A stretch of 64,000 nucleotides of DNA from NCBI RefSeq assembly GCF_018389385.1, contig NZ_CP062698.1:561501-625500 (forward strand), read 5' to 3'. Below are positions 15,061 through 25,683 of the stretch, in pieces. Source of the DNA: Anthocerotibacter panamensis C109 (lineage in GTDB: Bacteria > Cyanobacteriota > Cyanobacteriia > Gloeobacterales > Anthocerotibacteraceae). Positions within the stretch are counted from its first letter, which is position 1. The number at the start of each line of letters is the position of its first letter. Both the position numbers and the translations under genes were made by a program. The notes under the pieces were generated by a model. It had not been told where the DNA came from. It searched no databases and worked only from the letters and a program-made list of their open reading frames with translations.

Positions 15061-18000
15061 ATGTGGCAGCAGGCAGCATCTAGCAATGGCAATATGGAGC
15101 TAGAGCCCTTTGTAAACCCCATGACCCTTACTCCGGCCCGTCCCGACCTCCTTGAAGCGCAGATCCTCCATCTCGGCACCCAAATCCTCAAGGGGAGTAC
15201 GGGGAGTAAGGGGTTGTCCGCCCTGCTCCAGAAAAGTTGGTGGGACGATAAGCTCATGGATTGGGCGATGGCTGATGAAGTGCTGCGTGTGGAGCTGTTT
15301 CGGTTGGTGGACTGTTTGCCCGCCCTCAAGAGCAAGCCTGAAATCGCCCGTCATATGCAGGAATATCTCGGTCAGCGGGGCTTGCACCTGCCCGAGCTGC
15401 TCCAAAAATCCATCAACTACACCAAACCCGACTCCCTGCCTGCTCAGACCGCTGCTACCGCCATGACCCTCGGAGCGGAACAATTGGCGAAGCGCTTTAT
15501 CTGTGGTGCCAATGTCGAAGAAGCCCTCAAAGCCCTCCAGCAGTTGCGCAAGAAAAAACTGGCCTTCTCTGTGGACCTGTTGGGTGAAGCGGTCACCTCC
15601 GAGCACGAAGCCCTCCAGTACCTCCAGCGCTACTTGGATCTGATGCCTCGTCTGGCGAGTGTCGTTCAGTCCTGGAGCCCGATTCCGCTCATCGACCAAG
15701 CGACCTCGGAGGAGTTGGCCCGCGTCAGTATTTCAGTCAAAGTGAGCGCCTTATTTTCGCAGTTTGACCCCTTCAACCCGGACGGGACGCAACAAGTGGT
15801 CCAGGAACGCCTGGTTCAACTCTTGCGCCAAGCACAACAGACCGGGGCCTTTGTCCACATCGATATGGAGCAGTACGCCTACAAAGATCTGACCTACCAG
15901 ATTGTTCAGGATCTACTGATGCAGCCCGAATGGCGGGGTGTAAGCCGTGTTGGGATGACCATCCAGGCTTATCTCAAGGACAGCTATCAAGACGCCCAGC
16001 AGATCCTCGCTTGGGCCAAAACCCGAGGCACCCCGGTCACGGTGCGTCTGGTCAAAGGAGCCTACTGGGACCAGGAAGTGATCCGCGCCAGCCAGGAGCA
16101 TTGGGAGATCCCCGTCTACACCGATAAAGCCCAGACTGACCACAACTTCGAGGCAATCACCGCCCTCCTCCTCCAAAATCACGCGCTTGTCCATACAGCC
16201 ATTGCCAGCCATAACGTCCGCTCGCTCGCCCATGCCCTCGTCCTCGCCGACCACTATCAGGTCCCCGCGCGCGCCCTCGAAATTCAGATGCTCTATGGTA
16301 TGGCTGACCGCTACGCTCAGGCGCTAGCGGGCCTAGAACGGCGCGTGCGCGTCTACAGCCCCTACGGCGAACTACTGCCCGGTATGGCCTATCTCATCCG
16401 CCGTCTGTTGGAGAACACCGCCAACACTTCTTTTTTGCGCCAGAGTCTAAATGATGGGCTCGATCCTCAGGAATTACTCACCGCCCCGCGCCCACGCCCC
16501 ACGCAGACGCCTGTCGCAACGCTCGGATTCATCAACAGCCCCAACCAAGACTTCTCGCGCACCGAAGTCCGTCTCCAACTCCAGACCGCCCTGCAAAAAG
16601 TTCAGGGACAACTCGGGCAGACCTACCCCGCCCGAGTCGGCACCCAAATCCTGGCTGACCTCCCTGCTGTGCCCTCCGTCAATCCCGCTGACCCCGCGCA
16701 AACCATCGGATTTATCGGCTATGGTTCCCCTGAAGCTGCACAAAAAGCCATGACCCTCGCCCGCCAAACTTTTCTTTCCTGGCGCAGGACGCCTGTAGAG
16801 GAGCGGGCACAGGTCTTGGAACGGGTCGCCCGACAGCTCGAGGAACGGCGCTTTGAAATCACAGCTTGGCTGACGTACGAAGTGGCAAAGCCCGCACGGG
16901 AAGCGGATGCTGAGGTCTCAGAGGCAATTGACTTCTGTTGCTACTATGCCCAGCAGATGCGCCGTCTCGACCAGGGTCAGCACCGGGATGTGGCTGGAGA
17001 GACCAATTTTTATCACTACTGGCCTCGCGGCGTGTCTGTCATCATCGGCCCTTGGAACTTTCCGCTGGCGATTCCTCTAGGTATGACCGCAGCCGCCCTT
17101 GTCACCGGCAATACAGCTATTCTCAAGCCCTCAGAGCAGTCTTCGGTCATCGGGGCGCTTATCGTCGAACTGTTTGACCGGGCGGGGCTTCCCACAGGAG
17201 CCCTTACCTATCTACCCGGAAAGGGTGAAAGCGTCGGAGCCTATCTAGTCCGCCATCCTCAGACCGCGTTAGTCGCCTTCACCGGCTCTAGGGCGGTGGG
17301 CTGTCAGATCTATCAGGAATGCGCCGTCCTCCGTCCCGGTCAGACCCAAATGAAGCGCGTCATCGCGGAAATGGGCGGCAAGAACGCCATTATTGTCGAT
17401 GAAAGCGCTGACCTTGACCAAGCCATACTTGGGGTCATCCAATCCGCCTTTGGCTATAGCGGTCAGAAATGCTCAGCCTGCTCGCGGGTAATTGTCCTTG
17501 CCCCTATCTACGACCTTTTTTTGGAGCGCCTCACCGAAGCCGCCCGCTCACTCACGGTCGGCCCTGCCACTGATCCAAGCACCCGCGTCGTCCCTGTCAT
17601 CGACCAAGACGCCCAAGAGCGCACGCTCCAATACATCGCCAGCGCCTCCAGCCAAGGGCGGGTGGTCCTCCAGCAAAGCGCACCTAGCCCCGGCTACTAC
17701 GTGGGACCAACAATTGTGGCGGACGTTGCCCCCGATGCCCCCCTTGCCCAAGAGGAAATTTTCGGCCCAGTCCTCGCTGTCCTCAAGGCCCAAAGTTTCA
17801 CCGCAGCCCTCGACATCGCCAACGGCACTCCCTACGCCCTGACCGGCGGACTCTATTCGCGCACGCCCTCCCATATCCAGCTCGCTCGTCAGGAATTCGA
17901 GGTGGGCAACCTCTATATCAACCGGAGCACCACCGGAGCCATCGTCGAGCGCCAGCCCTTCGGCGGCTTCAAGCTCAGCGGTTTGGGCACCAAAGCCGGG

Positions 18001-18319: not shown

Positions 18320-19422
18320 ATGAGCAACACTTTCTTTGATGAATCAACTGAGCAGTCCCAAATCAAAACAGCTATTGTATCAAAGTATTTTTGGGTATGG
18401 GCTAAAGTCATACTCAAGGCTACCGGAAAGCCCTCAAAAATTGCTTACATTGACCTTTTTGCTGGACCTGGACGATATAAAGATGGCACAATGTCAACAC
18501 CTCTGCGAATTCTTATCTCAGCGATTAGAGAAGAAAAAATACGAGATGCGCTAATTACAGTTTTTAATGATAAAGATGAAAATAATTCACAAACCTTAGA
18601 GCGAGAAATACAAAATCTTCCAGGTATTACAACACTGAAATATAAGCCACAAATATACACAGGCGAAGTGGGAACTGAAATTGTAAAGCTTTTTGAAAGT
18701 AGAAGTATTGGTCCTACTTTATTTTTTGTAGATCCTTGGGGCTATAAGGGTCTTTCTTTAAAACTTATAAACTCTGTTTTGAAGGATTGGGGCTGTGATT
18801 GTATTTTCTTTTTTAATTACAATCGCATAAACATGGGTCTTAGCAATAAAGCTGTGCATCCTCATATGAATGCTTTATTTGGTGAGGGACGAGCAGAACA
18901 ACTTCACCAAATTTTAAAATCGATGCCTCCCTATGAGCATGAGCTAACAATTGTTGAAGAAATCTCTCAAACATTACGGACAGGAATAACTCCTAGATAC
19001 GTCCTCCCATTTTGTTTTAAAAATGACAAAGGTACTAGAACGAGCCATCACCTTATCTTTGTATCTAAGCACTTTAAAGGCTATGAAATCATGAAAGGTA
19101 TTATGGCTAAAGAAAGTTCTAGCTTTGATCAAGGAGTCCCAACCTTTATTTACAGTCCAGCAACAGAGAGGCAGCCCTTACTTTTTGAGTTAGTACGTCC
19201 ATTAGGTGATCTTGAAGAGATTCTGCTTCAGGATTACGCTGGGAAAACGATTACAATGCGTAAAATTTATGAGAATCATAGTGTTGGAAAAAGATATATA
19301 GAAAAAACTACAAAGATGTTTTACAAAAGTTAGAAAATGAAGGTAAAATCCAAGCTAGTAAGCATAAGAAAAACACTTTCGCAGGTACAGTAGAAGTAAC
19401 CTTCCCGCCAAGGACACCATGA
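18320..19422 (+). CDS. tcmP: TcmP-like three-Cys-motif partner protein, with apparent -1 frameshift
   Basis: The frame opened by the ATG at 18320 stops early at 19333. Shifting back one base in the six-A run at 19302-19307 extends it to a TGA at 19420-19422, adding [15 protein letters not shown] and a basic tail that fits a C-terminal winged helix. The joined product would be about 367 residues. The N-terminal part is Rossmann-like: [13 protein letters not shown] near residue 45, then [14 protein letters not shown]. These features match TcmP proteins, which are encoded beside three-Cys-motif proteins. Their biochemical role is not established to my knowledge. The gene is AT-rich compared with putA. 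The shift could be a mutation, a sequencing error in a homopolymer, or slippage on A-AAA-AAC. Confidence 0.7.
19302..19308 (+). other. A6C slippery-type run at the tcmP frameshift
   Basis: Six A followed by C (AAAAAAC) lie exactly where the two reading frames of tcmP must be joined. A tRNA reading AAA here can re-pair with AAA after moving back one base, so ribosomal or polymerase slippage is physically possible. A simple loss of one A gives the same picture. Confidence 0.5.
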
Positions 19423-19423
19423 C

Positions 19424-20152
19424 ATGGCCGAAAAATCCAGCATTGAGTGGACGGATGCGACATGGAACCCAGTTACGGGTTGCACAAAGGTCAGTCCTGG
19501 CTGCGCGAACTGCTATGCAGATCGTATGGCAAAACGCCTCCAACTCATGGGTAATGCCTCCTATACCCATGGTTTTGAGCTAACTCTCCAAGAAAAAGCC
19601 CTCGAACTACCCCTCAAGTGGAAGAAACCCCAAACCATTTTTGTAAATTCCATGAGCGACCTATTTCATGAAAAGGTCGAACTTGCATATATACAACGCG
19701 TTTTTGAAGTGATGAATCACGCTAACTGGCACACTTACCAAGTCCTCACCAAACGTTCAGAGCGACTACTTGCCCTAAGCTCTGACCTGAACTGGATGCC
19801 CCATATCTGGATGGGAGTGAGCGTCGAAACCAGCCGCTACACCTATCGGATTGACCACCTGCGCCAGACCGGAGCGCACATAAAATTCCTCTCCCTCGAA
19901 CCGCTTCTTGGCCCCCTACCTAACCTGGACTTGACCGATATTAATTGGGCTATCGTGGGAGGAGAATCTGGCCCAGGGGCTAGACCAATGGAAGAAGCCT
20001 GGGTCATAGACATTCAGAAGCAATGCGAAGCCGTTGCTGTAGATTTTTTCTTCAAACAGTGGGGAGGAGTGAACAAGAAGAAAACCGGGCGGGAATTAAT
20101 GGGCCAAACCTGGAATGAAAGACCTAGCACCACACAACTCGCCATACTTTGA
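19424..20152 (+). CDS. Phage Gp37/Gp68 family, three-Cys-motif protein (DUF5131)
   Basis: The product is 242 residues. The N-terminus reads [20 protein letters not shown], then [15 protein letters not shown], placing three cysteines at 20, 27 and 30. The family also shows [43 protein letters not shown] and [12 protein letters not shown], which recall a radical-SAM-like barrel with an iron-sulfur-binding start, although the C-x6-C-x2-C spacing is not the classical CxxxCxxC. Its ATG follows the shifted-frame stop of tcmP by one base, which argues that the longer tcmP is the ancestral form and that the two act together. The function is unknown; phage relatives exist. Confidence 0.8.
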
Positions 20153-20350: not shown

Positions 20351-21013
20351 ATGACCACTCTCACTGCGCAACCATCCAGCACCGAGGCCCCTGGCTCAAG
20401 GGTAATCCTGGAGGGCATCTCTTGGCGGACATACCTGACTCTCCTAGAAGAACTCGGCGACCATCGCGCCTCCCGACTGGTCTATGACAACGGCATCCTG
20501 GAAATCACTATGCCCACAGGACTCCACGAGATCATTGCCCGCCTCCTTGACCATATGATTACTGCGCTCGCCGATGAGCTAGACGTTATTATCCAGTTTT
20601 ACGGCTGCACTACCCTCAATCGAGAAGACCTCGCCAAGGGCGTAGAGCCCGACTGCTGCTACTACATCCAAAACCTCCGTGGTCCCGGCAGCCGCAGCCT
20701 GGATCTGCTCACTGACCCCCCGCCTGACCTAGCTGTAGAAGTGGACTTTACCAGTTCCTCAAGTCACAAGATGAGTGTTTACCTCAGCCTGGGCGTTCCT
20801 GAAGTCTGGCAATACACACAACAGCGGGGCGTGGTCATTTTTCAACTGAAGGAGAAGGGCTATGTCGCGTGCGAATATAGTCCCAGCTTCCCTCTTGTTT
20901 CTGGCGTAGTGTTGACAGAATTTCTGAATCGGGTTGTCACTGAGCAGGGAGATAACCTGATTATCCGGGCATTCCGTCAATGGGTGCGAGAACAACATTC
21001 ACCCCAGAAGTAA
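20351..21013 (+). CDS. Uma2 family protein (DUF820, PD-(D/E)XK nuclease fold)
   Basis: The product is 220 residues. The family, abundant in cyanobacteria, has a restriction-nuclease-like fold. Here LVYDNGILEITMPTGLHEII forms the N-terminal part, GVEPDCCYYI the middle, and DLAVEVDFTSSSSHKMSVYLSLGVPEVWQY the active-site strand with D-x-x-V-E-V-D and the later serine and lysine. Its start is supported by a GGAG-containing box just upstream. Cellular function is not established; it may be a nuclease linked to mobile DNA. It stands alone, 198 bases after DUF5131, in a gap that shows nothing else recognisable. Confidence 0.85.
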   Translation: MTTLTAQPSSTEAPGSRVILEGISWRTYLTLLEELGDHRASRLVYDNGILEITMPTGLHEIIARLLDHMITALADELDVIIQFYGCTTLNREDLAKGVEPDCCYYIQNLRGPGSRSLDLLTDPPPDLAVEVDFTSSSSHKMSVYLSLGVPEVWQYTQQRGVVIFQLKEKGYVACEYSPSFPLVSGVVLTEFLNRVVTEQGDNLIIRAFRQWVREQHSPQK

Positions 21014-21106
21014 TACCATTTTCCTGGAGGTATGCACGACTTGAACCGCTGAAACCCTCGTGGAGACTGGATCTATTTCGTGCGCTATGAACAATATTCG
21101 GGAGTT

Positions 21107-21142
21107 CCACATCCAGCTCGCTTGTCAGGAATTCGAGGTCGG
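21107..21142 (+). pseudogene. Fossil fragment of the putA 3' region
   Basis: These 36 bases match 17871-17906 inside putA at 33 positions and keep the putA frame (HIQLACQEFEVG against HIQLARQEFEVG). Nothing upstream or downstream is clearly alignable. It lies in the gap between the Uma2 gene and the ATPase pair, which otherwise shows no gene. It may mark the far side of an insertion that partly duplicated the end of putA. Confidence 0.6.
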
Positions 21143-21278
21143 CTCAACTTACCGACTGGAATACTTCCCAACGCTATGCAAACCGTAGTAACTTCGATCA
21201 GTCTCGCGTCGATCAGCATCATCTAGGCGCTGGTCGTGTGCAATCATTGATTCAGCGGGCTAAGGGGGACGGCTTGTT

Positions 21279-22610
21279 ATGACAGTACCTAATACGACAT
21301 TCGATGGCATCCTGCCGACGCTCACCGCAATTTTCGAGCGTCATAGGGAAGCATCAAAAAAACTAGGACGAATCCTGATCAACCGTGATCTGAACGGACG
21401 TATCCGCCTGATCCTCGACGAAAAATATGAGCATGACCAATCGGGTGGTCAGGAAGCCAAAACACTCGCCCAGGAAATTGCCCTTAAGCTTGGCCCTCAT
21501 GCATTTCCTGCTGAACAAAGCCTGCTGTTCGAACCGGATTTCGATCAAGTCTTCGAGCGTGAAATTACATTTCCGTTGGAGGAATTCGATCATATTTTTG
21601 TCGTTGACCGATTGGCTACTGAGTCGAATTGGTCCACAATCGAACCGCTCTCGGAAAATTGCCCAAGGATTGTTTTTTACTCGATCAAAGGTGGTGTCGG
21701 ACGTTCGACAGCATTGGCTATATCAGCTTGGGCTATGGCTGAGCAGGGCAAAAAGGTTCTTGTGCTTGACTTAGACCTCGAATCTCCGGGTTTGTCTTCT
21801 GCCTTGCTGCCTGAAGACCGCCGTCCGACATATGGCATCACTGACTGGCTTGTAGAAGACTTGGTAGATAACGGGGATGTTATATTTCAGGACATGGTCG
21901 CCACCAGTAATTTATCTCGGCAGGGTGAGATCTGGGTTGTACCAGCATACGGTACCGATCCGGGTGAATACATTTCTAAACTGAGCCGTGTATGGATGCC
22001 TAAGTTTAAGAACGATGGTGCTAAAGAACCCTGGTTTAAGCGCTTAGCACGACTGATAGGATCCCTTGAGCTACGTTTGAAGCCGGATGTTGTACTCATC
22101 GACAGCCGCGCCGGGATTGACGAGATTGCTTCGACTATTGTCACCGACCTTGGTGCTTCCCTGATTTTGATGTTTGCCATCAATGGTTCTCAGACTTGGA
22201 GTGGTTACCATATTCTTTTTGAACATTGGCGTAAGACCGGAGGTGTGCGCAATCTCCGTAAACAATTGCAGATCGTCGCTGCGATGGTTCCAGAAGTGGG
22301 TGCCACCGGCTATTTCACCTCCTTAGGTGAAAACGCATGGAATCTCTTCACAGACAAACTTTACGATGAGATAAAACCAGAGATGGATGCCCCTGAAGAG
22401 GAATTCCTGAATACTGAAGAACCGTGGAATTTCGATCTAAACGATAGCGAAGCCCCGCATTTTCCGTGGTCGGTTCGCTGGCACCGTGGCTTTGCGGCGC
22501 TAAAAAACCTCTACGACGGGATGGAACTGGATGAAAAAACGATCACTGCTGTTTTCGGTGATCTGATCCTGGGAGTGGGTAAGTTGGTGGACTCTTCACA
22601 GGAAATGTGA
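21279..22610 (+). CDS. ParA/MinD-like ATPase with extended N-terminus (KGGVGRS)
   Basis: The product is 443 residues. An N-terminal region of about 125 residues (GILPTLTAIFERHREASKK, then LILDEKYEHDQ) matches no family I recognise. A deviant Walker A motif of the ParA/MinD type then follows: YSIKGGVGRSTALAISAW (about 135-151), with the signature first lysine kept but the second lysine replaced by arginine. VLVLDLDLESPGLSSALL and DVVLIDSRAGIDEIAS complete the nucleotide site. The C-terminal 120 residues are acidic (EEEFLNTEEPWNFDLNDSEA). Only one base separates its stop from the start of the next ATPase gene, so they form a unit. Both are richer in AT than the flanking core genes. Confidence 0.8.
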   Translation: MTVPNTTFDGILPTLTAIFERHREASKKLGRILINRDLNGRIRLILDEKYEHDQSGGQEAKTLAQEIALKLGPHAFPAEQSLLFEPDFDQVFEREITFPLEEFDHIFVVDRLATESNWSTIEPLSENCPRIVFYSIKGGVGRSTALAISAWAMAEQGKKVLVLDLDLESPGLSSALLPEDRRPTYGITDWLVEDLVDNGDVIFQDMVATSNLSRQGEIWVVPAYGTDPGEYISKLSRVWMPKFKNDGAKEPWFKRLARLIGSLELRLKPDVVLIDSRAGIDEIASTIVTDLGASLILMFAINGSQTWSGYHILFEHWRKTGGVRNLRKQLQIVAAMVPEVGATGYFTSLGENAWNLFTDKLYDEIKPEMDAPEEEFLNTEEPWNFDLNDSEAPHFPWSVRWHRGFAALKNLYDGMELDEKTITAVFGDLILGVGKLVDSSQEM

Positions 22611-22611
22611 A

Positions 22612-24054
22612 ATGAACGTAAATGACATTCGCCGCGCCATCCTCGATACCTTACCGTCAGAAACCTCTCTGAGCGGAGCCCCGCCAAAACAAGAATCAAT
22701 TTATCTGCCCGTTGCTCACACCAAAGCACTCGCATTAGAAAACAGTTTAGTAGTTGGGGCGCGTGGTGTTGGCAAGAGTTTTTGGTGGTCTGCTCTCCAA
22801 GATGAAAAAATTCGTCGCACTTTGGAACCTTACCAACGGGATTTATCAAAATTATTCCTAGTTAGTGCCGGTCATGGCGAAAAACCAAATATCCAATCGT
22901 ATCCTGATATGCAAACGTTGGATAAGTTGCTCGAAACGGAGCATGATCCGCTCCAAGTATGGCGAGCTGTCACAGTCCGCTGGCTGGGTAGTTTGGTACA
23001 GGAGTCGTTCCCTACTGATTCTTGGGAAACCACTGTACATTGGGTCAAGGACAATCCTGAACATTTTGCGAAAATAGTTGAGCGTTCGAATACTCTCTTG
23101 AAAGATAAGGGACAGCACGCTTTACTTTTATTTGATGCCTTAGATCGAACCAGCCACGATTGGCGTACGATGGATCGAATAGTGCGTGATCTGTTGCACT
23201 TTTTACTCTATCTCAAGCCGTTTGATCACATCCATGCAAAAGTTTTCTTGCGTGAAGACCAATTTGAAGGACGCAAAGTGCGAGATTTCCCTGATGCTTC
23301 AAAGCTGCTGGCAACGCGTGTTGAGTTAACCTGGGGGAGCATAGACCTTCATGGTTTGCTCTGGCAGCATCTGATCAATGGTCAAGGCAGAGATGGAGAA
23401 ATTTTACGCACAATATTTCAAGAGGGTTCCGGTCTTAAAATCACTCAAGATGATGGTGTATTCAAACTCCCCGAGGCAATGCGTCGTGATGAGAAAATTC
23501 AGCGCAGCGTATTTATTAAGCTAGCCGGAGAACGGATGGGAAAAGACCCCCGACGCGGCGTGCCTTACACTTGGGTCATCAGTCACCTAGCGGATGGTTA
23601 CAGACGGGTATCCCCACGCTCTTTCATTGCCGCCATTCGCAACGCAGCGGAGGATAGTCTTATGCGTTATACAGATTATGAATTTCCTTTACATCACGAA
23701 AGTATCAAACGCGGCGTGCAGAAGGCCTCCGCGATTCGGATCAATGAAGTTCAAGAAGATTATCCTTGGATCGAGCGTTTGATGAACCCGTTGAAAGGCG
23801 TAACGGTACCGTGCGAGTTCTCGATAATTGAGCAAAGGTGGAGGGATGATCAAGCGCTTGATAAAAGTAAGTATACCGAAGACCGGCTTCCCCCTGAGCG
23901 TCTTCAAGATGGACCTCAAGGTGTGAGACAAGACCTCGAATCCCTGGGTATTTTTGAGCGTGTGAAAGATGACCGAGTCAATATGCCAGATCTATATCGG
24001 GTTGGGTTCAGGCTTGGGCGTCGCGGGGGTGTTAAGCCAGTGCCCAAAGGGTGA
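22612..24054 (+). CDS. P-loop ATPase, partner of the ParA-like protein
   Basis: The product is 480 residues. The Walker A motif is LVVGARGVGKSFWW (about 47-60), and a Walker B-like strand is ALLLFDALDR (about 170-179) followed by a long helical region. A segment HAKVFLREDQFEG sits where STAND/AAA-type ATPases carry a sensor arginine. The C-terminal 100 residues (VPCEFSIIEQRWRDD, later LESLGIFERVKDDRVNMPDLYRVG) look like a winged helix. No named family was recognised. The one-base spacing with the upstream ParA-like gene and the accessory setting suggest a two-component NTPase system, perhaps a defence or plasmid-type module. That is inference. Confidence 0.75.
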   Translation: MNVNDIRRAILDTLPSETSLSGAPPKQESIYLPVAHTKALALENSLVVGARGVGKSFWWSALQDEKIRRTLEPYQRDLSKLFLVSAGHGEKPNIQSYPDMQTLDKLLETEHDPLQVWRAVTVRWLGSLVQESFPTDSWETTVHWVKDNPEHFAKIVERSNTLLKDKGQHALLLFDALDRTSHDWRTMDRIVRDLLHFLLYLKPFDHIHAKVFLREDQFEGRKVRDFPDASKLLATRVELTWGSIDLHGLLWQHLINGQGRDGEILRTIFQEGSGLKITQDDGVFKLPEAMRRDEKIQRSVFIKLAGERMGKDPRRGVPYTWVISHLADGYRRVSPRSFIAAIRNAAEDSLMRYTDYEFPLHHESIKRGVQKASAIRINEVQEDYPWIERLMNPLKGVTVPCEFSIIEQRWRDDQALDKSKYTEDRLPPERLQDGPQGVRQDLESLGIFERVKDDRVNMPDLYRVGFRLGRRGGVKPVPKG

Positions 24055-24155: not shown

Positions 24156-24707
24156 TTAGGGCGCAAGGGGAGTCTTCGTGACCCCAGCCTCAGCCAAATG
24201 ACAGGCAGGACAACATTTCCAGCGCTTGAAGCTGGCAGGGTGGGCTTTGAGCGTGCAGCCCGGACAGGAGGGCCATTGGGCTTGCCGCCAGTGGACCACT
24301 TGAATGACTTGGGCAAGGCGTTCCTGAGGATCGTCGGTGGCGGGCCAGTGAAAGGGCATGGCTTCGACTTTAGCAGCGACGGAGGCTGTGATCGGGGTCG
24401 GGGGGGGCGTGTGCCAACCCGTGGGGGCGAAGCGGATGTCTTTGAGGCGCAGATCAGGCAAGTGGGCGAGGAGCCTATCCTTGAGGGCTTGACGTTGGAG
24501 GGTCAACTGTTGCGCCCAAACCGGGCTGGAGGTGGCAACCCACAACTGTCCATCGCTGAGGCGTTGGGGGCGGGCGTGGGGTGTGACCAGAGGACCCGCG
24601 ACCTGACTCCAGATCTCCAAGATCGCCAGGAATTGTTGGGTTTTGCGCCAATCCTGGGTCTGTTGCAGCTTTTGAAGGACGTTGTTCACAGATTCAGGAC
24701 GTGCCAT
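24156..24707 (-). CDS. DUF721 protein with C-terminal zinc ribbon
   Basis: The product is 183 residues from the ATG at 24707, one base after the galE stop. A longer frame exists upstream but lies inside galE. The DUF721 domain (a DciA-like KH fold) is seen as VNNVLQKLQQTQDW, then WSQVAGPLVTPHARPQRL, then LWVATSSPVWAQQLTLQRQAL, and DIRFAPTGW. DciA proteins load the replicative helicase, but cyanobacterial DUF721 proteins are of uncertain role. The C-terminal tail contains CPGC and CCPAC pairs that look like a zinc ribbon, which is not part of classical DciA. It is cotranscribed with galE. Confidence 0.8.
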   Translation of the reverse strand: MARPESVNNVLQKLQQTQDWRKTQQFLAILEIWSQVAGPLVTPHARPQRLSDGQLWVATSSPVWAQQLTLQRQALKDRLLAHLPDLRLKDIRFAPTGWHTPPPTPITASVAAKVEAMPFHWPATDDPQERLAQVIQVVHWRQAQWPSCPGCTLKAHPASFKRWKCCPACHLAEAGVTKTPLAP

Positions 24708-24708
24708 C

Positions 24709-25683
24709 TCAGCCGAACCTCTGCTGGTGCCAGTCCCAAGCTGTTTGGAGGACCACTTCCAGTTGTGCGTATTGAGGCGTCCAGTGCAAAAGATCGCGGA
24801 CGCGCTGGCTGCTGCCCACCAAGATGGCTGGGTCACCGGGGCGGCGTTCTCCCAATTGGACAGAGATCGGACGTCCGGTGACTTTCTGGGCTGCGGCAAT
24901 CACCTCTTGGACCGAGAAACCATTGCCGTTACCGAGGTTTAAGCATTGGCTCGCTCCTCCGTCCAGCAAGTATTGCAGCCCCAAAACGTGGGCTTGAGCT
25001 AGGTCGTTCACGTGAATATAGTCGCGGATGCAGGTACCATCCAGGGTGTCGTAGTCCGTACCGAAGACTGTGATATGGGGACGGCGGCCCAAAGCGACAT
25101 CAAGAACCAGGGGGATGAGGTGGGTCTCCGGGTTGTGGTCCTCCCCAATCCCACCCGCCGGGTCCGCCCCTGCCGCATTGAAGTAGCGCAGGGCGATGAA
25201 ATTGAGGCCCAAAGCTTGGTGGGTGTCCTGGAGGATCCGCTCCACCATCAACTTACTGCTCCCGTAGGGGTTGATCGGATTTTGGGGGTGGTCCTCGGGG
25301 ATAGGGAGCGTCTGCGGCTCTCCATAGGTGGCGCAAGTCGAGGAGAAAATAATATTTTTCACCCCTGCCTCGGTCATCGCCTCCAGCAGATTGATCGTCG
25401 AGGAGACATTGTTGCGGTAGTACTTAAGGGGCTGTTGGACCGATTCGCCGACATAGGCATAGGCTGCGAAGTGGATCACCCCAGCAAACGCATGACGGCT
25501 GAAAAGGTCTGTGAGTAACGCGCGGTCTGCCAGATCTCCTACCACCAATTCCGTGCTGGGCACAAATTCCGGGTGACCGTAAACCAAGTTATCGAAGACG
25601 ATAGTCTCAAAGCCTGCTCGCTTGAGGGCTCGGACGGTGTGAGCGCCGATGTAGCCCGCTCCCCCGGTAACCAGGACTTTCAT
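24709..25683 (-). CDS. galE: UDP-glucose 4-epimerase
   Basis: The product is 324 residues, the family length. GalE interconverts UDP-glucose and UDP-galactose with tightly bound NAD, feeding surface polysaccharide and galactolipid synthesis. It starts with MKVLVTGGAGYIGAHTVRAL (the GxxGxxG site), carries the catalytic serine in IIFSSTCATYG and the YxxxK motif in INPYGSSKLM, and contains FIALRYFNAAGADP, diagnostic for GalE. Its start overlaps the end of the upstream Ycf49-like gene by four bases, and its stop is one base from the DUF721 start, so the three genes form a minus-strand operon. Confidence 0.95.
   Translation of the reverse strand: MKVLVTGGAGYIGAHTVRALKRAGFETIVFDNLVYGHPEFVPSTELVVGDLADRALLTDLFSRHAFAGVIHFAAYAYVGESVQQPLKYYRNNVSSTINLLEAMTEAGVKNIIFSSTCATYGEPQTLPIPEDHPQNPINPYGSSKLMVERILQDTHQALGLNFIALRYFNAAGADPAGGIGEDHNPETHLIPLVLDVALGRRPHITVFGTDYDTLDGTCIRDYIHVNDLAQAHVLGLQYLLDGGASQCLNLGNGNGFSVQEVIAAAQKVTGRPISVQLGERRPGDPAILVGSSQRVRDLLHWTPQYAQLEVVLQTAWDWHQQRFG

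Follow-up and report, generated by a model that had tools for sequence, protein, structure and literature searches.

The closest published idea that we found for the genes described here comes from PMC3710099, where a HEPN protein of the MAE_18760 family and a ParA/Soj-like ATPase were predicted to form a toxin-antitoxin dyad, with the HEPN protein as toxin and the ATPase as antitoxin. According to the same work, many HEPN families share an Ex3[KR] motif, and AbiV and AF0298 retain the basic residue and carry a substitute histidine N-terminal to it. HEPN genes have also been described around BREX systems. In passages of a BREX survey (PMC12839542), standalone HEPN genes are auxiliary effectors in BREX loci, and the three-gene module discussed below is not mentioned in those passages.

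The nearest catalogued system is PDC-M28, the phage defence candidate M28 of PADLOC, which belongs to a set attributed, where PMC12988326 cites it, to a 2024 preprint by Payne et al. (10.1101/2024.01.29.577857). A literature search returned no paper naming PDC-M28, no experimental test of any module member or of a defence role, and nothing under Menshen with NsnB, which had been considered as a name for an equivalent system. The window analysed here, a 64,000-nucleotide stretch of the Anthocerotibacter panamensis C109 genome, carries two genes, B and C, that match PDC-M28 proteins over their full length and in the same order, and in relatives the gene upstream of them matches PDC-M28A. Unlike the catalogued system, the window has only a 3′ remnant of gene A, and no BREX genes lie near the locus. 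The module is known as a PADLOC candidate but uncharacterised, and what the window carries is a degraded representative.

Two ATPase genes in a small acquired island

The initial annotation described two genes one base apart, and both open reading frames are indeed intact: gene B (PDC-M28B; 21279..22610, plus strand, 443 aa) stops a single base before the ATG of gene C (PDC-M28C; 22612..24054, plus strand, 480 aa). A Shine-Dalgarno-like GGGGGA precedes B, and a promoter and terminator scan at the locus gave matches at chance level only. The pair lies in a low-GC stretch (38–52% GC, against 56–61% in the flanks) between putA and DciA/galE that also contains TcmP, DUF5131 and Uma2 genes, and this stretch is a small acquired island, as the initial annotation had supposed. 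The closest relatives of B are found in other phyla, at about 50–58% identity, and those from its own class are far less similar, which supports horizontal acquisition. When four relatives were searched for a clean empty site, none was found, the putA and DciA homologues being far apart or on separate contigs. The further claim that no replication, partition or carboxysome gene is nearby holds for partition sites and carboxysome genes, none of which was seen around B and C, but the gene directly 3′ of C (24156-24899, minus strand), which belongs to the core-genome flank, encodes the replication factor DciA.

Other genes of the island may be noted in passing. The TcmP (three-Cys-motif partner) and DUF5131 genes at 18320-20152 match PADLOC PDC-M30A/B and M41, and on these matches they form a second candidate defence pair. 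A Uma2-type putative endonuclease gene (20351-21013) sits directly 5′ of the A remnant and may have come in when A was truncated. As parts of the module, TcmP, DUF5131 and Uma2 were rejected, because no other locus with the module contains them.

The product of B joins an N-terminal region (about residues 1-125) to a ParA/MinD-like ATPase. It belongs with the PDC-M28 B proteins (PDLC04559/04560), matching PDLC04559 with an E value of 1.1e-174 over residues 6-440, and it also exceeds the cut-off of NCBIfam NF047398, 'KGGVGR-motif variant AAA ATPase' (AAA_KGGVGR; 1.9e-59), a family name to which no function is assigned. The P-loop, K137-GGVG-R142-S, is encoded by codons 137-143 (21687-21707). 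It departs from the deviant Walker A motif of ParA/MinD proteins, KGGxGK[ST], in that the signature lysine K137 is retained and the second lysine is arginine, just as the initial annotation had read it. Both K137 and R142 are invariant in all 59 aligned B members. R142 is therefore a mark of the family and not a peculiarity of the window protein, and the idea of a unique mutation was rejected. By its sequence, B is related to ParA/MinD and yet belongs to a distinct KGGVGR subfamily. The N-terminal region, which had been called unrecognised, has no match in Pfam and is conserved across the family, with R36 and W118 invariant. At all 32 positions where at least 95% of relatives share a residue, the window protein has it as well. 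No phage record matched B, and a profile comparison of B with C found no homology between them.

The product of C likewise belongs to PDC-M28, matching PDLC04561 at 3e-193 over residues 3-477. The P-loop assigned to the second gene is real (Walker A, G49-x-RGxGK55, 22756-22779), and it is accompanied by a Walker B sequence, FDALDR (residues 174-179, 23116-23148), and by further conserved residues at R214/D216 and SPR 334-336. In general databases C is much less conspicuous: ATPase_Sll1717 of NCBIfam, again a family name with no assigned function, is matched weakly (63.5 bits against a cut-off of 75), Pfam yields only a sub-threshold AAA_16 match, and a sequence search of solved structures gave chance matches only. 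An AlphaFold2 model of C (mean pLDDT 95) was more informative, with the best Foldseek matches to ORC2/Cdc6 (1w5t, 7e-6) and BrxC (9zdx, 1.5e-5), both at probability 1.00 and with TM scores of 0.32–0.39. ORC/Cdc6-type AAA+ ATPases have an ATPase domain followed by a winged helix. Judging from the modelled fold and the Walker A and B motifs, C resembles an ORC/Cdc6-like STAND AAA+ ATPase, and the C-terminal winged helix suggested in the initial annotation is probably present. C, too, carries the family residue at each of the 54 positions on which at least 95% of relatives agree.

A third gene, its distribution and its place in BREX type 2 operons

The initial annotation recommended a search for conserved co-occurrence and for a possible third gene, and both exist. 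B and C are strictly found together and, in many cyanobacteria, are fused into a protein of about 890 aa (L002-L005, L017-L035). In plasmid relatives, a small ORF of 134–181 aa that matches PDC-M28A precedes B and C. A scan found 80 loci on genome contigs and another five on viral contigs, and gene A lies directly upstream in 78 of the 86 loci that encode separate B and C. Four of the eight loci with no called upstream A begin at a contig end. The other four comprise a split A (L084), a deletion (L087), an ORF-calling artefact in a locus where A is present (L114) and one locus without A (L118). Even among distant cyanobacterial B-C pairs, whose C is about 28% identical, nine loci have A upstream, and an A-like ORF precedes the fused B-C gene of L133; few of the fused loci had upstream sequence long enough to check. 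The junctions are mostly 4-bp ATGA overlaps (48 between A and B, 39 between B and C), so the three genes are probably translationally coupled.

Loci with A-B-C occur in many phyla, on plasmids and on viral contigs, and C is carried by 21 plasmid records. Five IMG/VR viral contigs (L122-L126) have complete A-B-C, possibly as prophage or satellite cargo. In three methanotroph loci (L094, L099, L105), A-B-C has similar flanking genes, which in L105 are those for an MnmA-type tRNA methyltransferase and adenylosuccinate lyase; these loci perhaps share one common insertion site.

In one sublineage, the module is embedded in BREX type 2 operons (pglX, pglY/brxC, pglZ, brxD), where it occupies a fixed place between pglX and pglY in the order pglX-A-B-C-pglY-pglZ. 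Eleven distinct loci have this arrangement (L037/L120, L041, L102, L109, L110, L111, L113, L114, L115, L117 and L119), three of them ending at contig ends, so that the position of pglY was read where the contig allows. The fold modelled for C also resembles that of BrxC. In contrast, the window genome has no brxC/pglY homologue. Elsewhere, the raw listing of module neighbours includes BrxL, GajB, AriA, DarG, methyltransferases and genes that match PADLOC models. The initial annotation had held that neighbouring partition or secretion loci would speak against a defence role; no such tie was seen, and BREX-2 and other defence contexts were frequent.

Gene A and its remnant in the window

What gene A encodes was approached through its intact relatives. 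An AlphaFold2 model was built from 65 sequences (mean pLDDT 95), plasmid-record rows being left out of the alignments for both structural models. Compared with the PDB by Foldseek, it matched HEPN structures first: the six leading matches include four structures named HEPN (probability 0.82–1.00), the top match has an E value of 0.05 and a probability of 1.00, and Csm6 and AbiV stand lower in the list. On this modelled evidence, A has the HEPN helical fold. Sequence comparison is fainter. Among 69 A proteins, 20 match HEPN_AbiV (PF18728) of Pfam at E ≤ 0.1, the best at 2.7e-5, and most A proteins fall below the Pfam cut-off; none of the 69 matches HEPN_MAE_18760 at the same threshold, and a sequence search of solved structures with A returned nothing.

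The conserved residues of A are E45/K49 (81 of 81), H72 (72 of 81), R111 (80 of 81, in each case as R111-Y112) and W106. They include Ex3[KR], a retained basic residue and a histidine N-terminal to it, which is the HEPN_AbiV pattern set out in PMC3710099 and which favours reading A as an AbiV-type HEPN protein. The canonical Rx4-6H of HEPN RNases is mostly missing: a histidine at that spacing occurs in only 11 of 80 A proteins and is absent at the conserved arginine in 69 of 80. Given this missing spacing and the weak sequence match, A could instead be a non-catalytic HEPN protein.

As in the dyad of PMC3710099, the HEPN gene of the module adjoins a gene for a ParA-like ATPase; the module differs in that A matches HEPN_AbiV in Pfam and in that there is a third gene, C. 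AbiV, a lactococcal HEPN abortive-infection protein (PDB 9bj5-9bj7), shares with A the HEPN fold, the Ex3K, the retained basic residue and the histidine moved N-terminal to it, at low overall similarity. We know of no report that AbiV works with two ATPases such as B and C.

In the window, gene A is a pseudogene that the initial annotation overlooked. Its last 49 or so codons remain (21133..21282, plus strand; hmmsearch E 7e-13), covering positions 107-155 of the 158 in the profile, and no other match occurs in the six frames of the window. The remnant retains the conserved W...RY, is 50–55% identical to the C-termini of intact A proteins, and ends in a TGA that overlaps the start of B (ATGA), the junction also seen where A is intact. 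No in-frame ATG, GTG or TTG is available from 21091 until a GTG at 21238. Throughout the genome, the PADLOC A models (PDLC04557/04558) match only here, at positions 87-137 of 138, so that the genome has no second copy of A. Because only a 3′ remnant of A is left, and this has no start codon, the locus is a degraded derivative of PDC-M28 and not a complete member.

Directly abutting the remnant is a 37-bp segment (21107..21143, plus strand), which blastn against the window and its own genome traced, at 92% identity, to the 3′ portion of putA (17871-17907), which lies 3.2 kb upstream. This segment is a scar of the rearrangement that took the rest of A. The intergenic stretch at 21014-21147 is a patchwork, in which 50 bp (21035-21084) are 80% similar to another site in the genome (G000:C1:2681439) and are followed by the putA copy, as if ectopic DNA had filled a deletion junction.

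A broken or missing A beside intact B and C was also found in L054, L084 and L118, and these cases together with the window, four in all, two of them possibly assembly errors, make up the pattern of A being lost first. A broken B beside an intact A was not seen across the loci; the comparison concerns A and B, as C was the search query. In another decayed copy, L138 (7328-8639), B is deleted and an N-terminal piece of A adjoins a C-terminal piece of C.

A proposed decayed immune module and its rivals

Several lines of evidence were counted towards the explanation that we prefer, at a probability of roughly 0.6: the PADLOC matches, the upstream A in 78 of 86 loci, its HEPN-like character, the BREX-2 embedding, and a broken A beside intact B and C. 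The locus would be a decayed three-gene PDC-M28 module in which an AbiV-like HEPN effector was held and triggered by B and C, and which was inactivated here by the loss of A. Gene A, from its fold and conserved residues an AbiV/HEPN-T-like effector of the RNase type, would be made first and kept inactive by B and C. C would bind nucleic acid or sense its disturbance, and B, whose P-loop is altered, would relay between C and A as a nucleotide-dependent switch. Infection, or the blocking of a partner such as BREX-2, would then set A free from the ATPases, and growth would stop as A cuts RNA. With the effector missing from the window, B and C would be orphan regulators there. Gene content and order, the overlaps, the fold classes, the embedding in BREX-2 operons and the loss of A from the window were observed, and we infer the RNase activity of A, the identity of the sensor and the abortive outcome. 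Against this explanation, B and C retain all of their strongly conserved residues and may function without A.

A more specific form of the same explanation is offered tentatively. It envisages a three-part immune switch. An AbiV-type HEPN RNase would be restrained jointly by two ATPases, one a ParA-like protein of the KGGVGR type and the other an AAA+ sensor resembling ORC and BrxC. Recruited into BREX-2 operons, the module would provide a backup effector that fires when BREX is inhibited; in this genome, loss of the effector would have left B and C as an orphan pair.

A second, rather unlikely possibility is that A-B-C is a toxin-antitoxin or stabilisation module of plasmids and islands, with A as toxin and B and C as antitoxin, so that loss of the toxin here left harmless antitoxin genes. 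The dyad proposed in PMC3710099, the 21 plasmid records with C and the fact that the broken gene is A all fit this idea, but two large ATPases would be a heavy antitoxin, and the repeated embedding between BREX-2 core genes points to immunity, even if the two roles are not exclusive.

Improbable, in turn, is a two-gene defence or regulatory role of B and C alone in this genome, with the loss of A tolerated or adaptive. The intact ORFs, the full agreement of B and C with their relatives at 32 and 54 strongly conserved positions and the GGGGGA before B would agree with it. However, A accompanies B and C nearly everywhere, even where they are fused (L133), the effector-like fold is in A, and a recent loss of A accounts equally well for intact B and C. 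The conservation of both proteins implies either that the loss was recent or that B and C are still under selection. Finally, a DNA partition or positioning pair of ParA and a partner, suggested by the ParA/MinD relationship of B, is scarcely credible and was rejected, given the arginine of KGGVGR (59 of 59), the lack of any parB/parS seen with B and C, the context of chromosomal islands and BREX operons, and the HEPN-like third gene.

The initial annotation had proposed a sensor and effector pair in phage or plasmid defence. A defence role is plausible for the family, in view of the PADLOC candidate and the defence neighbours, but the two-gene scheme was incomplete, as the likely effector is the HEPN-fold A. 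Since A is a pseudogene here, the window copy probably defends no longer and is likelier to be a relic than a functioning system. For this genome, the result is a caution against scoring a B-C pair as an active defence system. For the family, an anonymous ATPase pair is now placed in a widespread, catalogued module whose missing effector can be named, and PDC-M28 gains a testable mechanism, an AbiV-like HEPN protein controlled by two unlike ATPases, for which the fixed position in BREX-2 operons suggests the role of a backup effector.
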